A stretch of DNA of 64,000 nucleotides from Brachyspira hyodysenteriae ATCC 27164 (lineage in GTDB: Bacteria > Spirochaetota > Brachyspiria > Brachyspirales > Brachyspiraceae): NCBI RefSeq assembly GCF_001676785.2, contig NZ_CP015910.2, positions 1 through 64,000 of the forward strand, read 5' to 3'. How positions within the stretch are numbered: the first letter of the stretch is position 1; every line of letters begins with the position of its first letter. The notes under the pieces were generated by a model. It did no database searches and was not told the origin of the DNA. It was given only the letters and a program-made list of their open reading frames with translations. The position numbers and the translations under genes are program-made. Positions 24,485 through 62,884 of the stretch are shown here, piece after piece.

Positions 24485-25381
24485 TTACTCGGCGAAATTT
24501 ATAAGCTCGCCTATATTTTCTATTAAGCAAATTATCTTATCTCCTTTTTTCATGTATTTAGGAGGATTAAAAGACATTCCAACACCTCCAGGAGTTCCTG
24601 TGGCAATTATATCTCCTGCTTCTAAAGTCATACCTTTTGATATGTCGGATATTAAATAATTTATATCATGAATCATATACTTAGTATTTGAAGATTGCCT
24701 TACTTCATCATTTAGAATGCTTTTTATATCGAGTTTCAAAGGTAATTTAAAATCATCTTTATGAACTATGCAAGGTCCCATAGCACTGTATGAATCCAAA
24801 CTTTTTCCTTTGTACCACTGAGAATGTTCTTTTTGTATATTTCTTGATGATATATCATTGAATATACTGTAGCCAAATATATAATCATTAACTTCTTCAG
24901 GCTTTATATCTTTTGCAGTTTTTCCTATGATTACAGCTAATTCAACTTCATAATCAAGACATTCATCTAAATCAAATCTTGCTTTTATTTTATCGCCGAA
25001 ACCAATTATTTCTATGGCCCTTTTAGAAAAGTATACAGGTGCTTTAACCTCTTTAAAATCTTTCATATCCTTTTTTATTTCGCCTAAATGATCACTGTAA
25101 TTTACACCTACACATATGATATCATGAATTGGCTTTCTTATTGGAGATAATATTTTAACATTATCTATAGAGTATGCTCTTTCAAAATTTTCTTCAGCAT
25201 ATTTTAGTTTATTTAAAATATCATTGTTTTCATTTATCATGTTTATTAATTGTATCATAGGATTAGAATAACATTTAAAGTCAGATATTATTTCATTAAT
25301 AGCAATAACTTTTTTTCCATCCTTGCTTAATATACCTACAGATTCAGTATTATTCCATTCGACAAAAGATACTAATTTCAT
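24485..25381 (-). CDS. Fumarylacetoacetate hydrolase-family protein
   Basis: A 298-residue protein with the FAH catalytic domain from ~residue 85: the VGVNYSDHLGEI segment, metal-binding Glu/Asp in DECLDYEVELAVIIGK, and GDIIATGTPGGVG near the C-terminus. Family members hydrolyse or decarboxylate 2,4-dioxo acids with Mg2+ or Ca2+ (for example acylpyruvates, oxaloacetate or homoprotocatechuate products). No aromatic-degradation genes are near, so a housekeeping acylpyruvase or oxaloacetate decarboxylase role is as likely. The start follows CGGAG. Confidence 0.88.
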   Translation of the reverse strand: MKLVSFVEWNNTESVGILSKDGKKVIAINEIISDFKCYSNPMIQLINMINENNDILNKLKYAEENFERAYSIDNVKILSPIRKPIHDIICVGVNYSDHLGEIKKDMKDFKEVKAPVYFSKRAIEIIGFGDKIKARFDLDECLDYEVELAVIIGKTAKDIKPEEVNDYIFGYSIFNDISSRNIQKEHSQWYKGKSLDSYSAMGPCIVHKDDFKLPLKLDIKSILNDEVRQSSNTKYMIHDINYLISDISKGMTLEAGDIIATGTPGGVGMSFNPPKYMKKGDKIICLIENIGELINFAE

Positions 25382-25600
25382 TATTATAACTCCGAAAAAT
25401 ATTTTTATTGATATATTAAACTTCTCTATACGATTATCATTTTAATAAAAAATTGAGATAATTTTTAAAGTTTTTTAATCAATAGTGTTTCATACATTAT
25501 AGTAAATTTATAAATGTTTTTCAATATAACGATAATAAAAACTTGAATATTAAAGAATATAAAATATAATTAGTATCTATTTTTATATTAAGGTGCATAT

Positions 25601-27580
25601 ATGGATATACTTGAAAATGTGAGCGAAGTTCAAAGAGAGGGAATACTGCATACCGGAAGTCCGCTTCTTCTTTTGGCTGGTGCAGGAAGCGGTAAGACTT
25701 TAGTTATTACCAGAAAAATAGCTTATCTTATTAATGAGTTAGAAGTAGTTCCTGAAAATATAATGGCTGTAACTTTTACAAATAAAGCAGCACATGAAAT
25801 GAAAGAGAGAGTATGCAGCTTGCTTCCGGATATAAAGCCAAGCAGATTATTTATAAGAACTTTTCACTCTGCATGTTTAAGAATATTGAAAGAGAATGCA
25901 CATTTTTTGGGATATAAATCTAATTTTCTTATTTTAGATGAAGGAGATAAGGCTTCTGTTATTAAAAGAATAATGAAGGAAGAAGAAGTGCCAAAAAGTA
26001 TAGGACAGAAACTTATAACAAGATTTATATCCAATGTGAAAAATGGAATGGATGACGGTATAGTTTTCGATAGAGATATTTTTGAAAATGTTTATAAAAA
26101 ATATACAGAATATGAGTTTAATGAAAATGTGATGGATTTTGATGATTTAATTTTAAATACTATAAAATTATTTGAACAAGAAAATAAGGTTTTAAATTAT
26201 TATAGAAACAGATTTAAATATATATTAGTAGATGAGTTCCAGGATACTAATCCTCAGCAGTATAAATTAATAAAATTATTAACTCAGGATGCAGAGAATG
26301 ATTTAACGGTTGTAGGTGATGATGATCAGAGTATATATGCATTCAGAGGGGCAGATGTTTTAAATATCCTTGATTTTGAAAAAGATTATCCTAATACAAA
26401 GATAGTTCGTCTTGAAGAGAATTACAGATGTCCAAAGGATATTGTAGAAGCTGCTTTGAGTGTAATAAAAAATAATAGTAATCGTCATGAAAAGAATGTA
26501 TTTTCTAATAAGCCTAATGAGTTTAAAATAGAAAATTGGATTTGCTATAGTGATTTGGAAGAGGCTAGAAGTGTAGTCAATGAAATAGAATCTTTATTTG
26601 ATAATGGATTTGAGGCAAGAGATATTGTTGTCTTATTTAGAACTAATAGCCAATCAAGAGCTTATGAAAAAGAGTTGAGGCTTCATTCTATAAATTATAA
26701 AATAGTTGGCGGTGTAGGGTTCTTTGATCGTATAGAGATAAAAGATTCAATTTCTTTTTTAAGACTTATGACAGGTTTCGGAGATAATTTTAGCGTAAGA
26801 CGAACTATAAATGTTCCGCCTAGAGGAATAGGGGAGAAAAGTTTTAATAATTTTGAAACTTTTGCAAATAGCAGAAAATTGAGCCTTTACAATGCTATTG
26901 ATTATATTGATGAATCAGGACTTTCTAAAAAGGCTATTTCCAATATAAAAGCATACAAAAGTATTATAGAAGAATATGCTGTAAAAATAAAAGAAGACAT
27001 TATAAATGAAGACGGTATTCATATAGAGTTATTATTTTTCGAGTTTTTAAAAGAGATAGATTATTTTTCAATATTTAAAGGCGATGGTAATGAAAGAGTA
27101 ATAACAGCAGAAGAGAATATTAAAGAACTTTTCAGAGGTTTTTATGATTATAAATCAATGGAAGCTAATGCTACACTAATAACATTCTTAGAAGAAAATA
27201 CTTTGTACAGAGATTTAAATACTAATGATGAAAAGGAAGATTATGTAACATTGATGACTATTCATAATGCTAAGGGTTTGGAATTTGATGTGGTATTTAT
27301 GACAGGAATGGAGCAGGGTGTTTTTCCTCATTATTTCTCACTTGAAGAAGAAAAAGGAATTGATGAAGAGAGAAGGCTTTGCTATGTAGGGATTACAAGG
27401 GCAAGAAGAAAACTTTATCTCACATACTCAAAAAAACGAAGGGTAAGTACAGGTATAATGGAGCAGATTCCTTCATCATTCTTATTAGAGATACCTAAAA
27501 AATTGATGCTTATCAAAGAAAAAGCTAATTATTATTCTGGTAATTATATGGATATAGATGAAGATGCTTTTGATTATTGA
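25601..27580 (+). CDS. pcrA: UvrD/PcrA-type superfamily 1A DNA helicase
   Basis: A 659-residue 3'-5' helicase used in nucleotide excision and recombination control. Motifs in order: Q motif (SEVQREGI), Walker A AGAGSGKT (residues 26-33), Ia TFTNKAAHEMKERV, II VDEFQDTNPQQY, III GDDDQSIYAFRGA, IV ENYRCP, V TIHNAKGLEFDVVF, VI YVGITRARRKLYL. The C-terminal ~50 residues are shorter than in Gram-positive PcrA, which may affect RNA polymerase contact. It stands as a single gene behind AAGGTG. Confidence 0.92.
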   Translation: MDILENVSEVQREGILHTGSPLLLLAGAGSGKTLVITRKIAYLINELEVVPENIMAVTFTNKAAHEMKERVCSLLPDIKPSRLFIRTFHSACLRILKENAHFLGYKSNFLILDEGDKASVIKRIMKEEEVPKSIGQKLITRFISNVKNGMDDGIVFDRDIFENVYKKYTEYEFNENVMDFDDLILNTIKLFEQENKVLNYYRNRFKYILVDEFQDTNPQQYKLIKLLTQDAENDLTVVGDDDQSIYAFRGADVLNILDFEKDYPNTKIVRLEENYRCPKDIVEAALSVIKNNSNRHEKNVFSNKPNEFKIENWICYSDLEEARSVVNEIESLFDNGFEARDIVVLFRTNSQSRAYEKELRLHSINYKIVGGVGFFDRIEIKDSISFLRLMTGFGDNFSVRRTINVPPRGIGEKSFNNFETFANSRKLSLYNAIDYIDESGLSKKAISNIKAYKSIIEEYAVKIKEDIINEDGIHIELLFFEFLKEIDYFSIFKGDGNERVITAEENIKELFRGFYDYKSMEANATLITFLEENTLYRDLNTNDEKEDYVTLMTIHNAKGLEFDVVFMTGMEQGVFPHYFSLEEEKGIDEERRLCYVGITRARRKLYLTYSKKRRVSTGIMEQIPSSFLLEIPKKLMLIKEKANYYSGNYMDIDEDAFDY

Positions 27581-52604: not shown

Positions 52605-53024
52605 CTATTTATTTTTTATTATAATATAAAGTCCAAAATGAATTATTAGCGATCCTATAACAATGCTTAGTATATAAGAAATACTATCAGAAAATGGAAG
52701 TTTTATATTGCTTGGTTCATCAGGATCATACCATAAAGGCAATTCATCTCCTACTTTTCTAAATGGATAATAACTTCTTAAAGTAGCATATAATGTTCCA
52801 TGATTATCAGCTTCATAGCTTATTACCATTGTTTTTTCATATCTAGTTTCTCCGGATTCATATACCCTTTTTCTTCTATCGCACTCTTCAACTACTCCTA
52901 CAGTATGAATATAATTTTTTGTATCAATAAAAGAAAACAATCCTGCTACACCATCCAATGTTAAAACTATTCCTGCAAAAACTATTAGTATTTTTCCTAT
53001 AATTGAAATTTTTTTTTTGTTCAT
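52605..53024 (-). CDS. DUF3592-type membrane protein
   Basis: The 139-residue protein has two membrane helices (~10-30 and ~112-135) flanking an extracytoplasmic beta domain with TVGVVEECDRRKRVY, VISYEADNHGTLYA and PLWYDPDEP, the layout of DUF3592. It is about 70% similar by eye to the plus-strand gene at 56543-56962, and the two point toward each other's flank in inverted arrangement. Function unknown. Confidence 0.8.
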   Translation of the reverse strand: MNKKKISIIGKILIVFAGIVLTLDGVAGLFSFIDTKNYIHTVGVVEECDRRKRVYESGETRYEKTMVISYEADNHGTLYATLRSYYPFRKVGDELPLWYDPDEPSNIKLPFSDSISYILSIVIGSLIIHFGLYIIIKNK

Positions 53025-56321: not shown

Positions 56322-56542
56322 ACTTCTTTTAGTATAGCATAAATTTTCAAAACTAAAAGTATTATAATGTATATTGATTTTTAGTTTTTATATGTTAGAA
56401 TCCTGATATAAATTTATGCAGTAAATACATTTTTATGAAGAAAGAATATTTTTAGTTTTTTGATAAATTTATTTCAAAAGATAATGTGTTTATTAAAGCA
56501 ATAACAAAAGTAAAATTATTAAAAAATAGTGTGTGGGTAATA

Positions 56543-56962
56543 ATGAATAGAAAAAAAATTTCAATTATAGAAAAAATATTAATATGTTCTGTAGGAATAG
56601 TTTTAACTTTTGATGGGGTAGTAGGATTCTTTTCTTTTATTAATACAAGAAATTATATTCATACTGTAGGAGTGGTTGAAGAGTTAGATAGAAAAAAAAT
56701 AGTATATAACCCTAGAAAAATTGGATATAAAAAGGTAATGGTAATAAGATATGAAACTGATAATCATGGAACATTATATGCTACTTTAAGAAGTCATTAT
56801 CCATTTAGAAAAGTAGGAGATGAATTGCCTTTATGGTATGATCCTGATGAACCAAAAAATATAAAACTTCCTTTTTCTGATAGTATTTCTTATATATTAA
56901 GCATTGTTATAGGAGTGCTAATAATTTATTTTGGAATTTTTATTGTAAATAAAAATAGATAG
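56543..56962 (+). CDS. DUF3592-type membrane protein, paralogue of 52605-53024
   Basis: The 139-residue protein has two membrane helices and the same extracytoplasmic core as its minus-strand paralogue (NYIHTVGVVEELDRKK, DNHGTLYATLR, PLWYDPDEPKNIKLPFSD). An upstream in-frame ATG at 56486 would add 19 residues that have no equivalent in the paralogue, so ATG 56543 is taken as the start. Function unknown. Confidence 0.8.
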   Translation: MNRKKISIIEKILICSVGIVLTFDGVVGFFSFINTRNYIHTVGVVEELDRKKIVYNPRKIGYKKVMVIRYETDNHGTLYATLRSHYPFRKVGDELPLWYDPDEPKNIKLPFSDSISYILSIVIGVLIIYFGIFIVNKNR

Positions 56963-57260: not shown

Positions 57261-57289
57261 TTGACAAAATTGATACTAAATAATAAAAT
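57261..57289 (+). promoter_or_regulatory. Promoter of the first structured RNA
   Basis: TTGACA (57261-57266), exact 17-bp spacer, TAAAAT (57284-57289). Expected transcription start is at 57296-57297, exactly where the closing stem of RNA 1 begins. Confidence 0.8.
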
Positions 57290-57296
57290 AAAAAGC

Positions 57297-57358
57297 AGAT
57301 TCCAACAGCAAAATAATATAAATCCATAAATACTGGGTTAAATGTAATCTAGTTTTTT
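57297..57358 (+). ncRNA. Structured small RNA candidate 1 upstream of the Ro60-like gene
   Basis: About 62 nt. The closing stem AGATT (57297-57301) pairs with AATCT (57346-57350), followed by AGTTTTTT as terminator tail. An inner hairpin AATCCA-TAAATAC-TGGGTT is present. The 5' segment AGATTCCAACAGCAA matches AGACACGAACAGCAA of RNA 2 at 12 of 15 positions, and both end in TCTAGTTTTT. The changed bases in the closing stems remain paired. Confidence 0.6.
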
Positions 57359-57378
57359 ATTTTGGAAATAATATTTTT

Positions 57379-57464
57379 TAGACACGAACAGCAATTTATT
57401 TTCTGGTAGTAAGAAGGTTCAACTCCTTTAGCCATTTTTAATGGTGTATATTGTGTCTAGTTTT
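57379..57464 (+). ncRNA. Y-RNA-like small RNA candidate 2 with tRNA T-arm mimic
   Basis: About 86 nt. The closing stem TAGACAC (57379-57385) pairs perfectly with GTGTCTA (57453-57459), followed by GTTTTT. Further pairing ACA/TGT above an internal loop is possible. Inside is a canonical tRNA T-arm, GAAGG-TTCAACT-CCTTT (57413-57429), extended by TGGT/GCCA. Bacterial Y RNAs bound by Ro proteins pair their ends and mimic tRNA; this RNA sits 78 bp before a Ro60-like gene. Confidence 0.65.
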
Positions 57465-57466
57465 TA

Positions 57467-57507
57467 ATTCTATGCTTATTTAATTATAGGCATAGAATAT
57501 TTTTTTA
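57467..57507 (+). terminator. Rho-independent terminator between the RNAs and the Ro60-like gene
   Basis: ATTCTATGC (57467-57475) and GCATAGAAT (57490-57498) pair perfectly, followed by ATTTTTTTA. It separates the RNA transcript from the protein gene or attenuates read-through. Confidence 0.85.
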
Positions 57508-57541
57508 TTATAGAACTTTTTATTATAGGAGAATTCATTTT

Positions 57542-59041
57542 ATGTCTTTTTTAGATTTGCTTAAAAATTCTTTTAATAAAACTTATACGCAGAATTTCGC
57601 TGATACTAATATTTCATCATTAAGCAATGTAATAGATTTATTTGCAACTATGGGAGCAAGCAGATTAAAAAAAGATGATGAATTATTAAAATATTTTATA
57701 GATGCTTGGAGAGAAAGTCCTGAACTTACAGCTAAATGTATAATGTATTTAAGAGATATAAGAAAAGGTATTGGCGAGAGAGAAGTTTTTAGAAAATATA
57801 TTAATATTATGATTAAACAAAATCATACTCTCACTGCAATAGAAATTTTAAAAACTATACCAGAGCTTGGAAGATGGGACGATATCATTTATATATGGTA
57901 TGAGAATAGAGAAAATAAAAATATTTCTAATTTTACAAAAAATATAATATTAGAGCAATTAGAAAAAGATAAAATTTCTAATAATGTTTCTCTTCTTGCT
58001 AAATGGCTTCCTAGTGAAAATACTTCATCAAAGAATACAAGAAATATTGCAAGAGAATTAATAAAACTTTTAAATATAAATACTAAAGAATATAGAAAAA
58101 CTTTATCTGCTTTAAGAAAGAAAATAAAAATAATAGAAAATAATTTAAGAGAAAAAGATTATACATTTAATTATTCTTCAGTTCCTTCGCTTGCTATGAG
58201 AAAATATTCAAAAGCATTTATTAGAAATGATGAAGAAAGATACAATAAATTTTTTGAAGATGTAAAGTCAGGAAAAGTTAAATTAAATACAAGCGTCTTA
58301 ACTCCTTTTGATGTTATAAGAGAGATTTTAGACTGTGCCGAGGAAGATATAGATTCAAGAAAAGAAGAATTCGATTTAACTTGGAAAAATCTTCCAAACA
58401 TTTTTGGAGATAGTAATTTAAATGCAATAGTAGCATGCGATGTATCTGGAAGTATGGGAATGGCTTTGAATGGGGAACCATTGATATGTTCTGTAGCTTT
58501 GGGAATATATATAGCACAGTTAAATAAATCTGCATTTCATAATCATTTTATAGATTTCTGCGGGGATTCTAAAATGCATGATATATCAAATATAAATAAT
58601 ATTGTTGATATAGTTGATTATGTTTTAAGATCATCTGTTGATTACAGTACAAATATAGATTCTGTATTTAAAGCTTTGCTTGATACTGCTATAAAAAATC
58701 ATGTACCGCATGAAGAACTTCCTAAATATATAATAATAATTTCTGATATGGAATTTAATCAATGCGAATTTCAAAATAAAACTAACTTTGAATATTGGAA
58801 AGAAATATTTAATAAAAATAATTATAAGCTTCCTAGAATAATTTTTTGGAATGTAAACTCATTAAGCAGAATAATGCCTGCTTTAAAAAATTATGATGTA
58901 TTATTTATTTCTGGAAGAAGTCAGAATGCTATAAAAAATATAATCAATATAGACAAATACGATTTAACAAATCAAGATGAAATCTCAATGCTTTTAATAC
59001 TTGATACTTTAAAAGATTATAATATTGATATAAAGGATTGA
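57542..59041 (+). CDS. Ro60-like protein: DUF2828/TROVE-like helical domain plus vWA domain
   Basis: The 499-residue protein has a helical-repeat N-terminal half (~20-270) with LFATMGASR, KCIMYLRDIRKGIGEREVFRKY, LGRWDDIIYIW, SLLAKWLPSENTSSKNTR and VPSLAMRKYSKAF, the pattern of DUF2828. A von Willebrand A domain follows (~292-490) with an intact MIDAS (ACDVSGSMG, then a Thr/Asp in STNIDSV and IIISDMEF). Ro60/Rsr proteins have the same helical-ring plus vWA architecture and bind Y RNAs and misfolded RNAs. Two structured RNAs with a tRNA-like arm lie immediately upstream, which supports an RNA-binding role. The start follows TAGGAGAA. Confidence 0.85.
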   Translation: MSFLDLLKNSFNKTYTQNFADTNISSLSNVIDLFATMGASRLKKDDELLKYFIDAWRESPELTAKCIMYLRDIRKGIGEREVFRKYINIMIKQNHTLTAIEILKTIPELGRWDDIIYIWYENRENKNISNFTKNIILEQLEKDKISNNVSLLAKWLPSENTSSKNTRNIARELIKLLNINTKEYRKTLSALRKKIKIIENNLREKDYTFNYSSVPSLAMRKYSKAFIRNDEERYNKFFEDVKSGKVKLNTSVLTPFDVIREILDCAEEDIDSRKEEFDLTWKNLPNIFGDSNLNAIVACDVSGSMGMALNGEPLICSVALGIYIAQLNKSAFHNHFIDFCGDSKMHDISNINNIVDIVDYVLRSSVDYSTNIDSVFKALLDTAIKNHVPHEELPKYIIIISDMEFNQCEFQNKTNFEYWKEIFNKNNYKLPRIIFWNVNSLSRIMPALKNYDVLFISGRSQNAIKNIINIDKYDLTNQDEISMLLILDTLKDYNIDIKD

Positions 59042-59091: not shown

Positions 59092-59237
59092 TTATCTACT
59101 TTTTTGTCGCACACGCTCTGCGGACTTCGTCAAAGTAGCAAAAACACAATTGCTAAAACTTTATATTCTAATAATATGTATTAAATATGTTGTAATACCA
59201 TAGTTTTAGCTCAAAAATGCAGTTGTTTAGGTATATA
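59092..59237. repeat. Family B repeat, partly deleted, with promoter-like end
   Basis: TTATCTACTTTTTTGTCGCACACGC and GACTTCGTCAAAGTAGC match the IR arms of the TPR cassette. It ends in AAATGCAGTTGTTTAGGTATATA, the same spacer and -10 as the repeat-borne promoters but with no good -35. The hairpin middle is missing. Confidence 0.7.
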
Positions 59238-59751: not shown

Positions 59752-60993
59752 ATGCAAAATATAGAAAATAAACAATCTAAAATAGAAAAAATTATTGAAG
59801 AATATGATAATAAATTGAAAGATAAAAACAGAGAGATAGAAAAATTAAATGATGAATTAAACAGAGTATCTACTAATAATTATAATTCAGGCATTCCAAA
59901 TGTGATATCAAATAGGGGAGATGAAAGCGATGATTTTTCATTTCCTTATAAATGGGCATTAACTTGTAAGAGAATGGAGAACTCTATTTATCTTGAGCCT
60001 ATACTTCAGTTTTATAGAGGAGTTTTTAATTCTTTTAATTATTTTGTAGAGAAGCCAAAAGAATGCGAAGATAATGAAAAAGTAAACAATGCATATAACT
60101 TTTTTATAAGCCAATTTGAAAGAGCAGGCGGACTTAAAAACTTAATAGTTAATGTTTCTTACAATGCATTAGTTTACGGATTTTGTTTTTTTACTCCTAA
60201 ATTAGAAGTCTTGCCTGCTAAGGTTTACGGATTTAAAGGAAGACTTGACGGTTTAAAAGGATTTAAATATTATGATCCTTCTTCAATATATAGATTCAAT
60301 TTTGATGAGTATGACAGCGATGAAATAAAAAGTATAAGCATTATAAAAAGACATAAAGAAATTTTTAATGCTTATTATAATTATGATGAAGCAAGTATTA
60401 TAGATATAGATTTTGATTTAGCATTAGCAGGATATGCAAGTTACGGAAGTATTGAAGGCGATATTATAGGAAAGCCTTTTTTATACAGTGCATATTCACT
60501 TTGGCAGATTTTAGAATCTATGGATAATAGTTTCAACCGTAATTTAAAAAATATAGGTGAGCATAGTTTTAATTTTATAGCGAACACTGAACTTAATGAT
60601 TCAAAGCGTAAGGAGGCAGAGCGTGAAATAAGAAATTTTATAAATAACGGCGGCGGAATTTTTATTTCCAAATACGGCAAAATAGAAAAAATAGAAAGTA
60701 TTGATGCTAATGAATGGTATAATTTTAGAGACAGCATGCTTTCCACCTTGTTCAAAAATAAAGGTGTAGATATTAAAGCACTTGGTCTAAACAAAGGGGC
60801 TACTAAATCATTAGCGGAACTTACTCAGGATAATGCCCTTCTTATGGCAAGCGATATAGTTTCAGGTATAATCAATTATATAAATAATAGTTTTATTAAA
60901 AGATATTTTGATTTGAATTTCAAAAGTTTAAGACTGTCAGGACAATGCGACTATTTCAGGATTTCTCATTCTATAATTAATAAATCAGAATAA
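59752..60993 (+). CDS. Phage portal protein (DUF935-like)
   Basis: The 413-residue protein starts with a coiled coil (~1-45). The portal core follows: KRMENSIYLEPILQFYRGVFNSF, ALVYGFCFFTPKLE (wing strands), GFKYYDPSSIYRFNFDEYD, a helical stem around FLYSAYSLWQILESMDNSFNRN and KGVDIKALGLNKGATKSLAELTQDN. Portals form the dodecameric ring at the capsid vertex through which DNA enters. Within the window the order is portal, protease/scaffold, decoration, capsid, the standard head-module order. No terminase gene is next to it. Confidence 0.8.
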   Translation: MQNIENKQSKIEKIIEEYDNKLKDKNREIEKLNDELNRVSTNNYNSGIPNVISNRGDESDDFSFPYKWALTCKRMENSIYLEPILQFYRGVFNSFNYFVEKPKECEDNEKVNNAYNFFISQFERAGGLKNLIVNVSYNALVYGFCFFTPKLEVLPAKVYGFKGRLDGLKGFKYYDPSSIYRFNFDEYDSDEIKSISIIKRHKEIFNAYYNYDEASIIDIDFDLALAGYASYGSIEGDIIGKPFLYSAYSLWQILESMDNSFNRNLKNIGEHSFNFIANTELNDSKRKEAEREIRNFINNGGGIFISKYGKIEKIESIDANEWYNFRDSMLSTLFKNKGVDIKALGLNKGATKSLAELTQDNALLMASDIVSGIINYINNSFIKRYFDLNFKSLRLSGQCDYFRISHSIINKSE

Positions 60994-61064
60994 GACTGAA
61001 TATTGAATAAAATTAAAATAAAAGTCTTGGTATTAATTTACTGAGACTTTTTTGTTTTGCCGTA

Positions 61065-61101
61065 ACTTATAATCACTTATATTTTTTGCTATAGGTATAG
61101 A
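61065..61101 (+). promoter_or_regulatory. Shared 37-bp promoter/operator element before the protease gene
   Basis: ACTTATAATCA, CTTATATTTTTT, GCTATAGG, TATAGA. A second, partial copy (ACTTTTTTGCTATAGATATAGAGATAAT) lies at 61224-61251, nearer to the gene start. Confidence 0.7.
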
Positions 61102-61194
61102 GATAATAAATAATCTCTGACTGCTTACAGCATTAAATAAAATAATGATTGGTATTAAACTGCACATATTTTTGGATTTGTATAATAATAAGTA

Positions 61195-61225
61195 TTACCG
61201 TGCGGGATGCCAGTACGGCGAGTAC
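61195..61225. repeat. Short GC-rich repeat remnant
   Basis: TTACCGTGCGGGATGCCAGTACGGCGAGTAC combines a GCACG-type box with the TACGGC...AGTA motif of the 33955-34020 and 59470-59545 sub-elements. It stands between the two copies of the promoter-like segment. Confidence 0.5.
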
Positions 61226-61291
61226 TTTTTTGCTATAGATATAGAGATAATTAAAAATCATTTCAATATAATTAATTTTTAAGGAGATAAA

Positions 61292-62245
61292 ATGATTAAA
61301 AAGAAATATAAAATTTTAGGTGATAGTTTCAAGCAGTATATACCGCTTTCAAAAAATACTTTTGCTGAAACTAAAACTAATAAAATCACAGAAAAAAATA
61401 TTGATGAGCTAATCAAATCATTTGAAAAAAAGAGCATAGAAATATTTGTCTATAAAGGGCATAAAGAAGATGAAGAAAGAGATGCTATTGGAAAAGTTGT
61501 AAGTTTAGAAAAAGATAATGAGTTTGTCGGACTTTATGCTGTTATAGAATGGTTTGATGACAGCATAACGGAGAAAAAATCTTTTTATCCTTCTATTGAG
61601 ATGGTTGGAAAAAAATCTTATGAAGATGAAAATTTTATTTACTGGGAAAATTGTGAAATAAAAGCTGTTGCTGCTGTAGAATATCCTGCAAGCCGTAATG
61701 TTGATTTGCTTTGTGCTAGTGCAATTATCAGTAATGAAGAAAATATTAATGGGGAGTATATGCAAAAATTAAAAAATGTATTAGAAAAATTAATTAGCGA
61801 AGAAAAAGAAATTCAAAAAGAAGCAATAGATGAGTTTGTTTATTTGTTTAGAAATGATGAAGAAATTCAAAATATTATCATTGATATGATAGTGAAGAAA
61901 TTAAAAGAGGATAATTCAAATGATAAATCAAGTAATGCAGATAAACAAATTTCAAATAATTCAGATAACAGCAATAAAGAATTAAATCTATCAGCTATAA
62001 CTTATGGAGATTGGTGCAATGAATACGCCGAGAGTCAGAATGCAGTTAGATGTTCTTCAAAATCAGAAAGCTCTACATTTATAAAAGCAAGAAAACTTTT
62101 CAAAGCAGGATTAAGCAAAGAAGAAATAATGTCAATAGTAAGAAATGATTTAGTACCTATCGGAGTAGGAGGCGGAGAGAAAATCAACTTATCAGCATTA
62201 AGCGAAGAGAACAAATACAGCGAGATAGCAAAACTATTTAAATGA
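61292..62245 (+). CDS. Head maturation protease/scaffold protein (Mu gpI-like)
   Basis: The 317-residue protein has an N-terminal protease-like domain (~1-145) with YKGHKEDEERDAIGKVVSLEK, GLYAVIEWFDDS, FYPSIEM and KAVAAVEYPASRNVDLL, the layout of Mu-like protease I proteins. A helical, charged region follows (~150-235), as expected of an internal scaffold. The end (KARKLFKAGLSKEEIMSIVRNDL) is a helical tail. It likely directs capsid assembly and then cleaves itself and the scaffold. A strong AAGGAG precedes the start. Confidence 0.65.
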   Translation: MIKKKYKILGDSFKQYIPLSKNTFAETKTNKITEKNIDELIKSFEKKSIEIFVYKGHKEDEERDAIGKVVSLEKDNEFVGLYAVIEWFDDSITEKKSFYPSIEMVGKKSYEDENFIYWENCEIKAVAAVEYPASRNVDLLCASAIISNEENINGEYMQKLKNVLEKLISEEKEIQKEAIDEFVYLFRNDEEIQNIIIDMIVKKLKEDNSNDKSSNADKQISNNSDNSNKELNLSAITYGDWCNEYAESQNAVRCSSKSESSTFIKARKLFKAGLSKEEIMSIVRNDLVPIGVGGGEKINLSALSEENKYSEIAKLFK

Positions 62246-62389
62246 TAATTATAAAATTATATTCATTGAAAAACTATTGATATTAACTATACGAATTCAT
62301 TTTTTGCTTCTTATTTGTAGGCTAGTTTTGTTTACCGTAAATGAAATTTAAAAGCTAATTATGAAGTAAATTTATTATAAATAGTATTT

Positions 62390-62447
62390 GTTCAACTTTT
62401 TTCCGCCGCACACTACAAGTGGGCTTCGCCAAAGTTGCAAAAAGTGA
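62390..62447. repeat. Family B repeat fragment
   Basis: TTCAACTTTTTTCCGCCGCAC, CTACAAGTGGGCTTCGCCAAAGTTGC matches the end of the family B repeats. It sits between the protease and decoration genes. Confidence 0.65.
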
Positions 62448-62515
62448 AAGTATAAAATTGATAGATTATAAATTTTTTCAAATATAAAAATTATAATAAA
62501 TTTAACGGAGTTTGA

Positions 62516-62884
62516 ATGGCACAAGGTTCTATAATAAAAGCTGGTATTCATAGCGATGAAGCTAATTTACCAAAAAGAGGATTTCCTGTATCAATAAAAG
62601 ATGATAATGGGAAAGGAGTTTTTTCACTTTATAGTGAAGGTTCAGTATTTGTAGGAGTTGCTTTGGAAGATGCATTCTCTTATAAAGAATTCGGATTAAA
62701 GCCAAATACAATATCAGTATGCTATGAAGGAATAGTGAATGCAGTTGTAGCTGAAAGCGTTATAGCTGGCGATATTGTAACGGCATCAGATAAAGGATTC
62801 AAAAAATCATTAGACGGACATGGAGTAGGAATAGTTATAAGAGGCGGAAGTAATTATGCAGAGATACTTTTAAAAAGTTTATAA
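62516..62884 (+). CDS. Capsid decoration/cement protein (DUF2190-like)
   Basis: This 122-residue, Gly- and Val-rich, all-beta protein contains LPKRGFPVSIKDDNGKGVFSLYSEGSVFVGVALEDA and VCYEGIVNAVVAESVIAGDIVTASDKGFKKS, the size and pattern of phage decoration proteins (DUF2190/lambda gpD-like). It lies just before the major capsid gene, which is its usual place. The start follows AACGGAG. Confidence 0.7.
   Translation: MAQGSIIKAGIHSDEANLPKRGFPVSIKDDNGKGVFSLYSEGSVFVGVALEDAFSYKEFGLKPNTISVCYEGIVNAVVAESVIAGDIVTASDKGFKKSLDGHGVGIVIRGGSNYAEILLKSL

Follow-up and report, generated by a model that had tools for sequence, protein, structure and literature searches.

A DUF2828 gene of Brachyspira hyodysenteriae and the two small RNAs encoded just before it probably form a Ro60/Y-RNA-type ribonucleoprotein (RNP) of a second protein lineage, DUF2828, which is mostly phage-borne. 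The RNAs of the locus share one handle with RNAs located beside DUF2828 genes in phages and in other spirochaetes, and the interiors of these handle units are replaced at will by pieces of tRNAs or by whole tRNAs, in normal or in permuted order. A first-pass annotation of the window (the whole 64,000-nt stretch analysed) had read the locus as a Ro/Y-RNA-type particle of a second, undescribed lineage in spirochaetes. That reading is supported and was understated: the second lineage is upheld by the protein fold and the shared RNAs, and its assignment to spirochaetes gives way to a distribution mainly in phages.

All components lie on the forward (+) strand in the order promoter, RNA 1, RNA 2, terminator, ribosome binding site and DUF2828 gene. 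The sigma-70-type promoter (TTGACA-17-TAAAAT, 57261-57289) matches the consensus at 11/12 positions and ends 7 nt 5′ of RNA 1; its TTGACA is kept in nearly all Brachyspira loci, several of which have a perfect TATAAT. RNA 1 (57297-57352) reads AGATTCC-A-ACAGCAA...GTAATCT-AG, with the end stem AGATTCC/GTAATCT, the handle ACAGCAA at 57305-57311, an inner hairpin (AATCCA..TGGGTT) at 57321-57339 and a 3′ end in ..CTAG. RNA 2 (57379-57460) has a 9-bp end stem, whose 5′ strand TAGACACGA (57379-57387) pairs with the 3′ strand TTGTGTCTA (57451-57459) in 100% of the cells of 14 distinct Brachyspira rows, followed by G at 57460. This stem carries ACAGCAA at 57388-57394 and encloses a perfect tRNA T-arm, GAAGG-TTCAACT-CCTTT (57413-57429, 97% of cells paired), and a hairpin, GCCATT-TTT-AATGGT (57431-57445, 95% of cells paired), that starts one base after the T-arm, in the position of a capped acceptor stem. 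The T-arm within a stem made by the RNA's own ends thus lies where it had been placed from the letters, and the coordinates of RNA 1 and the ACAGCAA handle on the end stem are defined here. As a single sequence RNA 2 folds better than shuffles (z -2.5). It has no D-arm, and neither RNA has an anticodon loop. In the gap between RNA 2 and the gene there is an intrinsic terminator (57467-57498; 13-pair stem, 6-nt loop, T run; 0.1 expected), also kept across Brachyspira, and the ribosome binding site AGGAG (57527-57531) precedes the 499-aa DUF2828/DUF7788 reading frame (57542-59041).

A prophage origin of the Brachyspira copy was considered and rejected: PHROGs name the DUF2828 protein alone and none of the downstream genes, and many species have the radical SAM gene found beside it, so we treat the locus as chromosomal. 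Several other features of this neighbourhood are recorded here. Genes at 59752-62884, 3′ of the DUF2828 gene, look phage-structural without any PHROG match, one of them (62516-62884) resembling a phage cement protein weakly, and are possibly a prophage or gene-transfer-agent remnant. Paralogous small DUF3592-type membrane proteins are encoded on opposite strands at 52605-53024 (-) and 56486-56962 (+), flanking SDF and radical SAM genes, and similar intergenic repeats occur at 59100-59150 and 62400-62446 (CGCACAC...GGACTTCGTCAAAGT and GCACACTAC...GGGCTTCGCCAAAGT).

The protein is Ro60-like in its predicted fold, a helical-repeat ring plus vWA domain, and falls outside TROVE by sequence models. 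Its Pfam matches are DUF7788 (E 4e-37) and DUF2828 (E 4e-36), with TROVE (PF05731) not among them at E<=1, which agrees with the earlier assignment of the helical half to DUF2828 rather than TROVE; PF05731 has no match anywhere in the source genome and TROVE is not found in Brachyspira. The PHROG match is 850, "RNA-binding protein". The intact MIDAS also proposed before holds across 53 relatives, in which D300, S302, S304, T370 and D402 are invariant. A structure model built from 44 sequences (pLDDT 90, pTM 0.88) was compared with the PDB, as had been suggested for the ring, and all 13 Foldseek matches at E<0.001 were Ro60/TROVE structures (E 1e-8 to 4e-6). VIA-align gave a Z of 24.4 across 414 residues with 1yvp and ranked 10/10 Ro60/TROVE entries on top (Z 13.5-24.4), with other folds at no more than 11.0. 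Identity to solved Ro60 structures is 10-14%, and a PDB sequence search with the protein returned no match.

Within Brachyspira, RNA 2 follows the gene. It lies just 5′ of the orthologous DUF2828 gene in 15/15 gene-bearing genomes, which are related species and not independent events, and is absent from 10/10 genomes without this orthologue. Two species carry a second RNA 2-like copy, and one species (G023) has a DUF2828 gene only 39% identical, preceded by a different RNA of its own that bears this handle. In another genome (G020, locus L029) the gene is disrupted by stops and the RNA 2 before it is intact. The 14 distinct RNA 2 rows are too similar for informative covariation, which was therefore taken from phage relatives. 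A covariance model trained on phage units alone (R1) was searched in 26 Brachyspira genomes and, in the 3.07-Mb source genome at E<=0.1, gave exactly two matches, namely RNA 2 (57378-57462; 34.1 bits, E 5.8e-4) and RNA 1 (57295-57354; 26.6 bits, E 0.039 for the whole genome and 5.1e-5 in a local search). Both RNAs fit the R1 definition, that is, an end stem, ACAGCAA 0-3 nt from the stem and a G after the 3′ strand. Both go undetected when cmsearch scans the window under its default filters, and whole-genome and unfiltered searches recover both. In the other Brachyspira species strong R1 matches fall at the DUF2828 gene with few exceptions (e.g., G008 at 1541366 and G023 contigs), and in species without the gene the matches are weak (E 0.02 or more).

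The DUF2828 protein is encoded in 680/50,697 phage records. We sampled 80 viral contigs, named phages and two bacterial loci, leaving 83 loci after dereplication. Of all 7-mers in the 1 kb before the gene, ACAGCAA shows the strongest strand bias (59/83 loci vs 2/83 antisense), and the T-loop word GGTTCGA ranks high as well (36 loci vs 2 on the opposite strand). Requiring a 7-10-nt arm 0-3 nt 5′ of ACAGCAA to pair with a strand further down, we found a good end stem at 78% of 153 ACAGCAA sites and at 15% of 835 same-composition 7-mers from the same regions (Fisher p 1.6e-53). A unit precedes the gene in 52 loci and in eleven more lies after it or farther upstream (the eleven include mycobacteriophage Rumpelstiltskin, the Felix O1-like phage Tf and Staphylococcus phage 6ec); in 20/83 of these protein-anchored loci no handle unit was found within the flanking DNA examined. 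Among 66 aligned units, 7/7 stem pairs vary on both sides and the covariation score is 0.87 vs 0.08-0.15 with the strands slid; these units were chosen by pairing, which biases their percent paired, so the fair comparisons are those with the 7-mer control and with slid strands. The family handle consists of an end stem with covarying pairs, the invariant ACAGCAA after its 5′ strand and a G following the 3′ strand, and the units occur in tandem. Four Treponema-like spirochaetes, of the same phylum and another family, also have a DUF2828 gene with handle units. Rfam scans of the window, 20 phage loci and 10 TROVE loci yielded no family for the units and matched ordinary tRNA alone; SNORA53 and mir-368 matches in a local scan were weak and were dismissed as chance.

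Phage tRNA clusters often adjoin the DUF2828 gene, and the RNAs might accordingly be taken for decayed genes of such clusters that lie near it by chance. The covarying end stem and invariant ACAGCAA, the presence of the Brachyspira RNA exactly where the gene is present, and a handle common to the ends of unlike tRNA pieces, which decay would not leave behind, largely refute this explanation, and we give it almost no credence.

The association was also recovered from the opposite direction. Two DNA patterns of the RNA alone, run against IMG/VR, led to a DUF2828 ORF in 83/152 loci within the flanking DNA examined, on the same strand in 82/83, mostly with the gene a few hundred bases 3′ of the RNA or the RNA directly 3′ of the gene. 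Fifteen loci had no gene nearby despite >=3 kb on each side; in 10/15 it sits in another part of the record, and of the five remaining records four are under 17 kb. This geometry also bears on whether the RNAs could be cis-acting leaders used by the DUF2828 protein to regulate the mRNA that encodes it. Units directly 5′ of the gene and on its strand, as in Brachyspira and many phages, would suit such leaders, but the Brachyspira RNAs have their own promoter on the 5′ side and a terminator between them and the gene, many phages have units 3′ of the gene or far off in the record, and the units are tandem with differing tRNA cargoes. We regard control of this kind as very unlikely.

Inside the handle, five-pair hairpins are enriched for 7-nt loops alone (97/152 units vs 46.6 in shuffles), the other loop sizes staying near expectation; the one enriched class is thus the loop size of tRNA arms. 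Anticodon-type loops of the form [CT]TNNNA[AC] occur in 41/152 units vs 2.4 in shuffles (maximum 8 in 200 shuffles), most commonly with the anticodons TTT, GTT and GCT, and T-arms occur in 23/152 vs 0.2. A scan of other DUF2828 loci for T-arm RNAs, proposed in the first-pass annotation, hence does find end-stem RNAs of this kind; as a hallmark of the system, however, the T-arm recurs as one of several tRNA pieces, and what the RNAs share is the ACAGCAA handle. A T-arm is present in 93 units of a larger set of 534; in 41/93 it is abutted by a 6-8-bp hairpin (background 8%), and in most of these 41, from phages and Treponema-like spirochaetes, a D-arm follows (e.g., TAGCTCAGTTGGTAGAGC). Units with T-arm, hairpin and D-arm are circularly permuted tRNAs, in which the break falls in the anticodon arm and the acceptor ends are joined, and RNA 2 would belong to the same class, minus the D-arm. 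Permuted tRNA genes, to whose order ARAGORN is blind, were seen at L118 (3475-3600), L121, L169-L171, L173 and other phage and spirochaete loci. A normal-order tRNA lies inside twenty of the 534 units, and by strict tests 358/534 (~2/3), RNA 1 included, have neither T-arm nor anticodon loop. On a Clostridia contig (L031, 3000-3386) a ROOL RNA, a tRNA-Leu and a tRNA-Phe precede the DUF2828 gene in that order, the tRNA-Phe sitting within a handle-bearing end stem.

A further arrangement is seen in about 30 normal tRNA genes, whose anticodon arm is interrupted on its 5′ side by a hairpin plus AC[AT]GCAA (permuted 7-mers average 0.6 such genes); the anticodon loop is retained in many. Such interrupted genes, with an insert of ACAGCAA or ACTGCAA plus a hairpin, are found at L108 (1643-2003), L102 (1931-2290), L248 and L093. 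In the tRNAs of L108 and L102 the handle interrupts the arm 5′ of the anticodon loop, which is mostly kept. These genes could be read as carrying an intron-like element, with DUF2828 aiding excision and joining of the interrupted tRNAs and the permuted ones being circularised and then cut. There is a precedent in red algae, whose permuted tRNA genes give circles that are cut to tRNAs. In many of the interrupted genes, such as those of L246 (Asp), L270 (Lys), L248 (Pro/Asn) and L108 (Asn), excision of the insert leaves a perfect 5-bp anticodon stem and an intact anticodon loop. In L118 the permuted unit makes up a tRNA-Asn when read across the handle, and an RtcB-like ligase lies near the DUF2828 gene in five distinct viral loci. 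Many units, however, are an anticodon arm alone or a T-arm alone, from which no tRNA is obtainable, and the Brachyspira RNAs have no anticodon loop. RtcB-like genes are near 6/241 loci only, a frequency that also led us to reject RtcB as a constant partner of DUF2828. The same arm order is present in YrlA, a stable permuted tRNA mimic that is unspliced. On balance an intron-like handle seems improbable, if still a live alternative.

We favour instead a handle that docks on the DUF2828 ring and holds out its interior. The tRNA-like interior would then act as bait, bringing tRNA-acting proteins to the ring or keeping them off real tRNAs. For phages the likeliest use would be as a decoy or trap for tRNA-targeting host factors, such as anticodon nucleases and tRNA-processing or tRNA-degrading enzymes. 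Single phage genomes can carry several different anticodon loops and T-arms, and we favour a role against tRNA-targeting factors over one fixed partner because of this diversity of anticodon loops, both within single phages and from phage to phage, and the presence of the protein in virions in one case. In Deinococcus radiodurans a Y RNA tethers Ro60 to PNPase, and tethering of this type would serve as well as a decoy or bait function; a link of the YrlA kind to an RNase or ligase has almost the same likelihood as a role against tRNA-targeting factors. RNA 1 and RNA 2, with their T-arm/acceptor minihelix, may have descended from the phage system as a chromosomal pair or be shared with it. Tentatively, many large phages may carry a modular tRNA-decoy particle against tRNA-targeting host defences, a Ro60-fold DUF2828 protein holding interchangeable RNAs with a common handle and differing tRNA cargo, of which Brachyspira keeps a chromosomal version; we put this forward as a possibility somewhat short of an even chance.

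The handle RNAs apparently constitute a large RNA family undescribed before. With them the second Ro lineage gains a defined candidate RNA partner that can be recognised by its handle, which makes binding, structure and function testable, and tractable phages carry the system (Listeria P100-like and Felix O1-like phages, mycobacteriophages, Staphylococcus 6ec). The cargo types give a concrete lead on the role of Ro particles in phages and explain some odd phage tRNA genes, and the handle is a ready family model for annotation.

To our knowledge, the bacterial Y RNAs recognised so far form a single family, made up of YrlA with a few relatives and linked to TROVE proteins. Like the DUF2828 locus, the Ro60/Rsr system (PF05731) combines a helical-repeat ring with a vWA domain and MIDAS, and its gene adjoins small end-stem RNAs; the two differ in the TROVE Pfam match, in the RNA handle and in sequence, at the identity given above. 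The Rfam consensus of YrlA (RF02553) has T-arm, capped acceptor hairpin and D-arm in an end stem, the order of our permuted units, but lacks ACAGCAA and has a different end stem. The DUF2828 units moreover come in tandem arrays, include anticodon loops and often contain a single tRNA arm, and RNA 2 has no D-arm. The RF02553 model has no match in the window at the gathering threshold, none locally at E<=10 and none in 20 phage loci; a sub-threshold match in the source genome was discarded, as it overlies two ordinary tRNA genes. With the fold and the arm order in common, and permuted tRNAs near TROVE genes of phages as well, the locus might be a classical Ro60/YrlA system too diverged for database models. 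That both YrlA and TROVE models fail to match, that identity to solved Ro60 is so low, and that the handle is unlike both the YrlA end stem and the motif found by TROVE genes make this unlikely, and we retain a second lineage with its own handle.

Part of this lineage had been glimpsed in Listeria phage CKA15. Its most heavily transcribed regions include three non-coding ones located no more than 2 kb upstream of CKA15_055, and CKA15_055 itself was detected in purified particles (20 peptides, 57% coverage) (PMC12282133). CKA15_055 was suggested to be an Rsr and the abundant upstream non-coding RNAs possible Y RNAs, without an RNA family, motif, structure or tRNA content being defined (PMC12282133). 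The first-pass claim that the lineage was undescribed consequently stands for the RNA family and not for the suggestion of an Rsr with Y RNAs. We find that CKA15_055 belongs to the DUF2828 family and that its gene is directly preceded, at 25,289-25,553 of OR088597, by three ACAGCAA units. The region with most reads (26,236-26,727 of OR088597) has no ACAGCAA unit, and the text of the report gives no coordinates for the other two regions (PMC12282133). This most abundant phage transcript region has no match to the RNA families tested and may be another structured RNA. In mycobacteriophages, some DUF2828 protein records (Zaria, BobsGarage) bear the name "Ro-like RNA binding protein", the protein being annotated and the RNA not.

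Nine phage and viral TROVE loci offer the closest comparison. No ACAGCAA unit precedes the gene in any of the nine, and permuted tRNAs are present somewhere in the fetched DNA of five. Another word, TTACTTC, recurs before the TROVE gene in 4/9 loci (11 occurrences vs 0 on the opposite strand); L341, L343, L344 and L346 have both permuted tRNAs and TTACTTC, a word that may serve the TROVE lineage as its handle. Since TROVE loci have permuted tRNAs without ACAGCAA, tRNA cargo appears common to both Ro lineages, whereas the handle tracks the protein. This comparison, drawn from few loci, is the best computational argument that the ACAGCAA handle is the putative binding site of the DUF2828 protein.
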